Below are positions 14,201 through 41,931 of a stretch of DNA of 64,000 bases, in pieces (positions within the stretch are counted from its first letter, which is position 1; every line of letters begins with the position of its first letter). The stretch covers positions 1-64,000 of the forward strand of contig NZ_BPIG01000001.1 of assembly GCF_026003995.1 (NCBI RefSeq), written 5' to 3'. The position numbers were made by a program, and so were the translations under genes. Under the pieces are notes generated by a model, which was given only the letters and a program-made list of their open reading frames with translations, did not search any database and was not told the origin of the DNA. The stretch comes from Tepidiforma sp. (GTDB taxonomy: Bacteria; Chloroflexota; Dehalococcoidia; Tepidiformales; Tepidiformaceae).

Positions 14201-15320
14201 TCATCTTAGGCGCAGGGCCGCGCTCCCGGGAACCGCGCCAGCCGCCAGCGCCTCCAGCGCCTCCTGCCACATCGGCCCGACCCGCTCCCACCCGAACCGC
14301 CGTGCAGCCGCCCGGAACGGCTCGCGCGGCGGCAGCGGCCCCGTGAGCAGCGCCCGGAGCCGCGCCATCAGCCCCGCTTCATCCTCCCAGAGCAGGTCGT
14401 GGTGCTCCGCCGGCACCAGCTCCGGGTAGGCATACCGCCGCGGCGCACACGGAATGCACCCCGCCGCCATCGCCTCCACCATCCCAATGCCGAAGAACTC
14501 GTGCCGCGTCGTGCTCACCGCGATATCGGCCATCCGCAGCAGCCGCGCGTACTCCTCCCGCGAGGCCGCGAACCCGAAGTGCAGCAAGCGGTCGGCCAGC
14601 GTCTCGCGGATGCGCCACATCGCCGGGCTCGGGTTCTCCCCCGGCTCGCCCGCGATGATGAGCTGGAATGGCACCCCCTCCTCCGCCAGCCGCCGCACGG
14701 CCCGCTCGAACAGCTCCGGCGCCTTGTCGAACTCCCACCGGTGGTTCCACAGGAGCGTACGCGGCTCCCCGCGCTCCTCCGGGCCCTCGAGCCAGCCGAG
14801 TTCAGACCCCGACCGGCAGCACCAGGCTCTTCGCCGCGATCGCGGCGATCCCCTCCGCCGTGAGCCAGTTGTTCGGCTCCCGCTCAAGCTGCCGGAACGC
14901 CCCCAGCAGGTCCGCCCGGTGGAACTCCGAATTGAACGCCGCCGCATCGGCCGCCAGCGCGCTCCGGTAGTTGATCTGCCCGAACCACGAGTTGAACTTC
15001 GTCCCGCGCAGCCGCGGATAGGTCACCTGGTTCTCGTGGAAGTACACCATCGCCGGCGTCCCGCCCAGCCGCCGCCGCGTCAGTGCGAGGAACTCCGCGA
15101 GGTCGACCATATCCGTCGCAACCACCACGTCGAACGCTCCCGCCCACCCGCTCGAACTGCCGCGCCAGCTCCTCCGCGCCCCGCCGCATCCGCCGCCGCC
15201 ATCCGCCCGCCGGCAGCGCCAGCACCTCCCAGTCAAGCCGCGTGTGCTGCAGCAGCCCGGTCAGGAACGCCCGGTGGCTCCCGCCATCGAACGGCTGGAG
15301 AAACAGCCCGCCGCATCCCT
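14201..15320 (-). pseudogene. tRNA-queuosine alpha-mannosyltransferase-like glycosyltransferase (DUF3524/GTDC1 family), frame-disrupted as given
   Basis: LFLQPFDGGSHRAFLTGLLQ; MVYFHENQVTYPR; INYRSALAADAAAFNSEFHRADLL; LLWNHRWEFDKAPELF; STTRHEFFGIGMVEAMAAGCIPCAPRRYAYPELVPAEH, across three minus-strand frames. Confidence 0.8.
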
Positions 15321-15326
15321 CGCAAC

Positions 15327-15833
15327 CTACAGGTGGCCCAGCTCGGCCAGCCGCTGGAGCGCCGCCTCGAGTCTCCCGGTCCTCCGGGTCCACCGACCGG
15401 TACTGCGCGCACGCAGTGGCCCCCGTACTTCTCCACGAGGTACCAGTCGTCGTCGATGATGAAATCCGGCCGCGGCTCGACCCGGCGGGTCCTTGTCGAA
15501 CATCCCGTCCACCCACTCCGAAAGCCCGTGGAGGTGCACCACCCGCTCGACATGCGCCAGCCCGGCCGCGCTCCAGACGTACACCCGGTGGCCGGCCGCC
15601 TTCAGCCGCTGCATCGCCTCCCGCGCGCCCGGGCGGAGCGCGTTCGTGTGCTGGTCGATGTGCACCAGCGTCTGGTCGACATCGAAGAAGATGTTCACCC
15701 GCGTGTCGCCCTCCCGCGGCGCCGGCGCCCGGCCCCGCCACGCCAGCATCCGCGCCGAATTCCACATCGTTCGCCCGTAGCCGAGCGCGAGCACCAGCCC
15801 GATGCCGAACGCCAGCACCCCGGCGCTCACCAC
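15327..15833 (-). pseudogene. HAD-superfamily hydrolase-like protein, frame-disrupted as given
   Basis: NIFFDVDQTLVHIDQHTNALRPGAREAMQRLKAAGHRVYVWSAAGLAHVE...WVDGMFDKDP then RPDFIIDDDWYLVEKYGGHC in another frame. Confidence 0.7.
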
Positions 15834-15839
15834 CGCCGA

Positions 15840-16785
15840 GCCGACGCTCTTGTACCACGTGTGCGCCAGCAGCGCCGCCGCCGCAGAACACCGCCGTGAG
15901 CGCGTACACCGCCAGCGTCACCCGCACGCCCGGTGAGCCCGAGCAGCCGCTCGATCCGGTCGTGGAAGTGGTCGAAGTCGGCATGCATCGGGTTCCGCCC
16001 GTCGAGGAACCGCCGGAGGAACGCCACCGCCGTATCCAGCACCGGCAGCCCGAGCGCCACCAGCGGGATGTAGAGCGGCACCCGCCCCGTCTCGTCGAGC
16101 GCCCCCGCCACGCTCAGGCCGGCCAGGGTGAACCCGAGGAAATACGCCCCCGAATCGCCGAGGAACCGCCGCGCCTTTCCCGAGATTGAACGGGAGGAAC
16201 CCGAGGGATGCCCCGAACAGCGCCGCGAAGAGCATCGCGATGAGGTCGTGGCCGAGGTCCCACGCGATGTACGACATCGTCCCCGAGACCATCGCCGCCA
16301 TCCCGGCCGCGACCCCGTCCTGCCCGTCCACAAGGTTCACGGCATTCGTCACCAGCACGATCCACGCCACCGTCACGACCGGGTCGAGCGGCCCCAGCGC
16401 CACCGCTTCCCCGCCCGGCAGCGTCATCCGGTCGACGTGGAACCCGGAGAGGTAGAGCGCCAGCGCCGCCAGCACGTGCGTGCCGAAGCTTGAACCGCCA
16501 GTCGAGGTCGCGGAAGTCGTCCCGCGCGCCCATCGCGCAGACGATGCCGCCGCATACGCCGAGCATCAGGAACTGCCGCCGGTCCTCGCTCACGAACTCC
16601 CGCGCCTGCCCGGAAAACGCCGCCATCACGAACGGCGCCGCCACGAACCCGGCGAGGATGCTGATCCCGCCGATGCGCGGCATCAGTTCGCCTTTCCGCC
16701 CCCGCTTCGTCGGCAGGCGGAGCAGCCACGTGAGCGGCAGCGCCACCGCGAACGCAGCCAGCGCCGTGCCGACCTCAAGCCACAC
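15840..16785 (-). pseudogene. Polyprenyl-phosphate HexNAc-1-phosphate transferase (WecA/TagO/MraY superfamily), frame-disrupted as given
   Basis: TKRGRKGELMPRIGGISILAGF; NAVNLVDGQDGVAAGMAAMVSG; RRFLGDSGAYFLGFTLAGLSV; NPMHADFDHFHDRIERLLGLTGR in successive frames. Confidence 0.8.
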
Positions 16786-40914: not shown

Positions 40915-41931
40915 TCACAGGATCAGCATCGCGTCGCCGAAGCTGTAGAACCGGTAGCGTTCGCGCACCGCCTCCCGGTACGCCGCCATCACGAAGTCGT
41001 ACCCGGCGAACGCGCACACCAGCATCAGCAGCGTCGATTTCGGCAGGTGGAAGTTCGTCATCAGCACGTCCACCGCCCGGAACTCGTCCCCCGGCAGGAT
41101 CTTCAGCGACGTCCAGCCCGCGTACGGGACGACCTCCCCGCACTCCCGCGCCACGTGCTCCAGCGTCCGCACCACGGTCGTCCCGACGGCGACCACCCGC
41201 CGCCCCTCGGCCCGCGCCCGCTGGACGCGAACCGCCGCCTCCTCGGGCACGGTGATGTGCTCCGCGTGGAGGTCGAACTCCCGCGGGTCGTCGACGTTCA
41301 CTGGCTTGAAGGTCCCCGGCCCGACCTCCAGCGTCACCGCCGTCCGCTCGATGCCGGCGGCTTCCAGCCGCGCCAGCAGCTCCGGCGTGAAGTGCAGCCC
41401 GGCCGTCGGCGCCGCCGCGCTGCGCGCCTCGCGGCTGTAGACCGTCTGGTAGCGCTCCGGGTCGCCCCGGAACTGCGTGATGTACGGCGGCAGCGGCACC
41501 TCGCCCACTCGCGCGGGGTCGAACGGCCGCGCGAACTCCAGCACCACCGTCTCGCCGTTCCGGCCGGCGCACACGGCCTCGAGCTCGCTCTCGTGCGTAT
41601 CGAACACGAACCGGCGCCCTTCGGCCGCCCGGCGGGCCGGTTTCATCAGCACCTCCCAGCGCGTATCCGTGAACGGCCGCACGAGCAGGATTTCGACCGT
41701 CCCGCCCGTGTCGGCCCGCCGCCCGAACAGCCGCGCCGCCATCACCCGCGTGTCGTTCACCACCAGCAGGTCGCCCGGCCGGAGCAGCCCCGGAAGGTCG
41801 CGCACGATGCGGTGGTCGATGCGCTGCGCCGCGCGGTCGAGCACCATCAGCCGGGCGGCGTCCCGCGGCTCGGCCGGCTCCTGCGCGATCAGCTCCGGCG
41901 GCAGGTCGTAGGCGAAATCGTCCGTCCGCAT
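40915..41931 (-). CDS. queA: S-adenosylmethionine:tRNA ribosyltransferase-isomerase QueA
   Basis: DDFAYDLPPELIAQEPAEPRDAARLMVLDR; LVVNDTRVMAARLFG; SAAAPTAGLHFT; TNFHLPKSTLLMLVCAFAGYD. Confidence 0.97.
   Translation of the reverse strand: MRTDDFAYDLPPELIAQEPAEPRDAARLMVLDRAAQRIDHRIVRDLPGLLRPGDLLVVNDTRVMAARLFGRRADTGGTVEILLVRPFTDTRWEVLMKPARRAAEGRRFVFDTHESELEAVCAGRNGETVVLEFARPFDPARVGEVPLPPYITQFRGDPERYQTVYSREARSAAAPTAGLHFTPELLARLEAAGIERTAVTLEVGPGTFKPVNVDDPREFDLHAEHITVPEEAAVRVQRARAEGRRVVAVGTTVVRTLEHVARECGEVVPYAGWTSLKILPGDEFRAVDVLMTNFHLPKSTLLMLVCAFAGYDFVMAAYREAVRERYRFYSFGDAMLIL

Follow-up and report, generated by a model that had tools for sequence, protein, structure and literature searches.

Known enzymes that decorate queuosine

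Queuosine (Q) bearing a sugar is known from animals, where its role continues to be debated. In bacteria, the known enzyme for decorating the Q of tRNA-Asp is GluQ-RS (YadB), the glutamyl-Q tRNA-Asp synthetase, which is a protein unrelated to the animal Q mannosyltransferase QTMAN (GTDC1) and adds glutamate. Bacterial members of PF12038 (QTMAN_N, formerly DUF3524), the family of the N-terminal QTMAN domain, have long been on record in Pfam. The animal modification is a mannose in alpha linkage to the allylic 3-OH of Q in tRNA-Asp (PMC12518689).

We have analysed a stretch of 64,000 nucleotides of Tepidiforma DNA (the window), in which the original prediction had placed a bacterial homologue of QTMAN. 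Like animal QTMAN, the window protein combines a PF12038 N-terminal domain with a GT4 C-terminal domain; unlike animal QTMAN, it is bacterial, and its activity, sugar and tRNA are predicted. Its nearest well-characterised relative in the PDB by sequence, and the nearest named one with a full-length structure, is PimA, the GDP-mannose phosphatidylinositol mannosyltransferase. PimA shares the GT-B retaining fold (Foldseek E 2.9e-11) and resembles the QTMAN-family protein in its C-terminal domain (E 2.5e-7, sequence search of the PDB), whereas it acts on a lipid acceptor and has an N-terminal domain other than PF12038. A search of the open-access literature returned no report of mannosyl-Q in bacteria, or of a function of the QTMAN family in bacteria; being limited to open papers, this absence is no proof of novelty.

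A QTMAN-family gene broken in the window and intact in its relatives

The gene runs on the minus strand from about 15325 to 14201, limits that come from an alignment of the window with a sister genome belonging to the same genus (L030, G226). Its parts, and the two other genes considered with it, are located as follows:

14201..15325, minus strand: whole QTMAN-family gene, with at least two frame breaks in the window assembly, unbroken in the sister genome
15148..15306, minus strand: QTMAN N-terminal (acceptor) domain, piece 1, matching PF12038 profile positions 3-55 and carrying GGSH and the W..RM motif
14805..15143, minus strand: QTMAN N-terminal domain, piece 2, matching PF12038 profile positions about 59-168 and carrying HENQ.TYP and FNS
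14201..14804, minus strand: GT4 C-terminal (sugar-nucleotide) domain, carrying RWEFDK and E-x7-E (HEFFGIGMVE), with the stop codon at its end
15327..15700, minus strand: small HAD-superfamily phosphatase, directly upstream of the QTMAN gene, frame-broken in the window
40915..41931, minus strand: queA, a Q-synthesis gene, unlinked to the QTMAN gene

The ORF translations revealed one protein spread over three overlapping minus-strand ORFs (14884-15984, 14802-15236 and 14201-14947). The first contains FDGGSHRAFLTGLLQ, the second VYFHENQVTYP and INYRSALAADAAAFNSEFH, and the third LWNHRWEFDKAPELF and STTRHEFFGIGMVEAMAAGCIPCAPRRYAYPE. All five segments that the original prediction had obtained by reassembling the frames, leaving the strand unstated, were recovered in this way, on the minus strand and in three successive frames.

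Over 1,231 aligned bases, the window and the sister genome show 98% identity and four one-base gaps; the gene of the sister is a single unbroken frame of 373 residues. Since this copy is intact and differs by a few one-base gaps, and since the adjoining HAD and WecA-like genes (minus strand, 15233-16785) are likewise frame-broken in the window, the breaks look like assembly (indel) errors, which on the nucleotide comparison would be the simplest reading; a true pseudogene would be a less simple one. In each of the five further members of the genus, the gene sits in one open frame. Across the order it is kept in 32 of 38 genomes, and in 21 of the 22 good ones. The copies of the order form a single clade with full support in the tree, which fits vertical retention.

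Family membership, conserved residues and fold

Pfam searches matched PF12038 to both N-terminal pieces, with 40.9-41.9 bits for piece 1 (E about 1.5e-10 to 2.4e-10) and 101.6-101.9 bits for piece 2 (E about 4.4e-29 to 6.6e-29), the Pfam cut-off being 25 bits, and Glycos_transf_1 to the downstream ORF (E 3.5e-14); all of these matches lie far beyond chance. The sister protein covers PF12038 end to end with 154.6 bits, and locus L004 reaches 215.9 bits. Hence, the PF12038 search that the original prediction had proposed as its check confirmed the QTMAN/DUF3524 membership, both in the two window pieces and in the intact sister copy.

The GT4 C-terminal domain holds the E-x7-E and R...DK residues of the family. 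An alignment of 31 proteins from Chloroflexota, Desulfuromonadia, KSB1, Bacteroidota, Calditrichota, Acidobacteriota and other groups revealed 28 invariant columns, including GSH, W..R, Y.HE.Q, R...DK and FG. The signature segments of human GTDC1 that the original prediction had cited (YGGSHKQL, YFHENQLIYP and YPEIFPAEY among them) resemble conserved columns of this bacterial family. The family is wide, the genome collection containing no fewer than 471 loci. Relatives were not found in viral contigs.

Modelled with AlphaFold (pLDDT 92.9, pTM 0.90), the sister protein matched GT-B/GT4 retaining enzymes in Foldseek, including PimA with GDP-Man, and the PDB copies searched yielded no solved structure of the QTMAN family, by sequence or by fold. 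With pI values of 5.3-7.9, the proteins lack the basic character that might have hinted at tRNA binding. Divergent PF12038 proteins of about 46 bits, with neither HENQ nor a GT4 C-terminal Pfam match, were observed in G276 (L032) and G208 (family f76); judged by these differences, their function has possibly changed.

Queuosine genes and the association with TGT

The queA gene that had been claimed at 40915-41931 is real, with PF02547 matching positions 40921-41922 (E 6.9e-127) and the E. coli QueA query giving an E of 2.2e-82. Using E. coli queries on 2.4 of the 2.75 Mb of the sister genome, we have found tgt, queG, queC and queE besides queA, and a weak queD match, in line with the expectation that queuosine is probably made; queF and gluQ were not found in the same 2.4 Mb. 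This part of the sister genome also contains all four GUN tRNAs and a ManB-like match, and a ManC homologue was not found in it; missing genes could sit in the remainder.

In a sample of 301 genomes of the phylum, PF12038 was present in 31, QueA in 189 and TGT in 238. Both queA and tgt had been put forward as genes whose co-occurrence with the family should be checked. The two behaved differently: 21 of the 31 QTMAN-bearing genomes had no QueA, which disqualifies queA as a marker, whereas TGT was present in all 31 and was matched in 24 of the 26 QTMAN carriers from other phyla. Among the 112 QueA-less genomes, TGT was found in 21/21 with QTMAN versus 34/91 without it, with a Fisher p of 3e-8 that carries no phylogenetic correction and treats genomes as independent, which they are not. 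The 21 genomes belong to four families only, 17 of them to a single one; when this family was left out, the overall association with TGT gave a p of 0.026. Because of the TGT counts in the phylum and in other phyla, QTMAN is linked to TGT, and not to queA or de novo synthesis. A TGT, with which the host can have Q in its tRNA through synthesis or salvage, was also found for the window's own genome (TGT E 9.4e-131).

The original prediction had regarded the presence of the family in many genomes lacking Q as evidence against it. If salvage counts as a source of Q, no such distribution was seen, because the QTMAN-bearing genomes of the phylum sample all have TGT and the TGTs of the QueA-less ones resemble the queuine-salvaging class; yet 2 of the 26 QTMAN genomes from other phyla showed no TGT.

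The TGT pocket and queuine salvage

The main TGTs of all 21 QueA-less QTMAN genomes have a shortened GGSLG pocket, at the place of GGLSVGE in the TGT of the window's genome. For queuine-salvaging TGTs, the typical pocket is GG[LS][AS]G instead of GGLAVG (PMC11570991); GGSLG shares the shortened length of GG[LS][AS]G, and its fourth residue is Leu. Thus, GGSLG fits the queuine type in length, not letter for letter. The TGTs of the window lineage (L003, L033 and L034) have a mixed pocket, in which GGLSVGE is kept as preQ1-type and the usual D-E-C is D-H-V.

In G128, a QueA-less genome that bears QTMAN, TGT adjoins a Qng1 (Q_salvage) gene. Qng1 was observed beside or near TGT at G128:C19 39491-41529 and at G036:C276 855-3466, and such neighbourhoods suggest queuine salvage units in the phylum.

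A second TGT paralogue with the pocket GGWPLD occurs alongside the GGSLG one (L060, L061 and other second TGTs of family f32). Two or more TGT matches were present in 125 of the 127 genomes that make up the Desulfuromonadia-like class around G318 (L129), with or without QTMAN. We have rejected the second TGT as a partner of QTMAN, nearly all genomes of this class carrying two regardless of QTMAN.

Proposed function

We consider it probable, with some reservation, that the QTMAN-family glycosyltransferase moves a hexose onto Q34 of one or more GUN tRNAs, the sugar being most plausibly mannose and the donor GDP-mannose. TGT would first place the queuosine base at position 34 of the tRNA, and the GT-B/GT4 retaining enzyme would then glycosylate a hydroxyl on the cyclopentene ring of queuosine. 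The window lineage would synthesise its Q de novo, and relatives without QueA would obtain theirs from salvaged queuine. The gene has the family, the fold, the conserved catalytic motifs, the order-wide retention and the accompanying TGT and other Q genes described above; from there, we infer the acceptor, the sugar, the tRNA and the product of its enzyme. Weighing against this function are the lack of phylogenetic correction in the co-occurrence, the flanks of QTMAN (up to 5 kb) in which no Q gene was found, the coexistence with GluQ-RS, the non-basic proteins, the failure to find ManC in 2.4 of the 2.75 Mb of the sister genome, and the two QTMAN genomes that showed no TGT.

Bacteria, like animals, may thus glycosylate queuosine. 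The broader proposal is that glycosyl-Q is widespread in several bacterial phyla, made by QTMAN-family enzymes whether the Q is synthesised by the cell or salvaged, and not specific to animals; our judgement on this is evenly balanced. If it is true, animal QTMAN is backed by a broad bacterial family. Carried by several bacterial phyla, the modification would be ancient or would have moved between domains, and glycosyl-Q would be accessible in simple, genetically tractable organisms. The link to TGT makes the idea directly testable by tRNA mass spectrometry of cultured relatives.

Alternative explanations and gene neighbourhood

In the Geomonas class, GluQ-RS scored above the cut-off in 123 of 127 genomes; of the 46 genomes with QTMAN, 45 had it. 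Since the two coexist with no mutual exclusion, we have rejected the idea that QTMAN replaces GluQ-RS. Should tRNA-Asp be the substrate of both enzymes, they would have to share it or compete for it; QTMAN may instead act on another GUN tRNA. A Q-tRNA hexosyltransferase whose sugar or tRNA (e.g. Tyr, His or Asn) is unlike that of the animal enzyme, which is a sub-case of the main explanation, would account for this coexistence and would agree with GDP-mannose synthesis being unconfirmed in 2.4 of the 2.75 Mb of the sister genome. We hold this variant to be rather doubtful, as nothing positive points to another sugar and the relatives of the donor domain include GDP-Man enzymes.

The flanks of QTMAN, covered up to 5 kb, contained none of the Q genes queA, tgt, gluQ and queG, and no neighbours recurred across phyla; outside the order, just a local gyrA/relA/ftsY block was seen in one group. 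Two genes upstream of QTMAN, the window carries a WecA-like gene (PF00953). Such a neighbour would suit an ordinary GT4 enzyme for a surface polysaccharide or glycolipid, related to QTMAN by common descent, acting on another substrate and sharing genomes with TGT fortuitously, and so would a fold that is common to many GT4 enzymes and a nearest named structural relative, PimA, that is a glycolipid enzyme. However, of the other loci checked, most of them with short flanks, the sister alone showed the WecA-like gene, no glycan gene recurred beside QTMAN among 80 loci from other genomes, and a conserved glycan gene cluster around QTMAN was not seen. No NCBIfam glycan model came near its cut-off either, and the TGT found in every QTMAN genome of the phylum sample speaks against this reading, which we regard as unlikely.

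The neighbour that is constant within the order is the HAD protein (about 120 residues), whose gene is found upstream of QTMAN and in the same orientation at 21/21 loci (L028, L030 and L299-L317), often within about 50 bases. Pairs of GT4 and HAD enzymes are known, e.g. sucrose-phosphate synthase and phosphatase, and by analogy the two proteins might, in this order, form a synthase/phosphatase pair whose product would be a small glycoside with no connection to tRNA. This appears highly improbable to us, the pairing having been seen only in the order: no HAD partner was seen near QTMAN in the loci examined outside it, and loci that have no HAD gene still conserve the family with its invariant residues. 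One further copy of the HAD family is located in the sister genome at about G226:C1:805,095.
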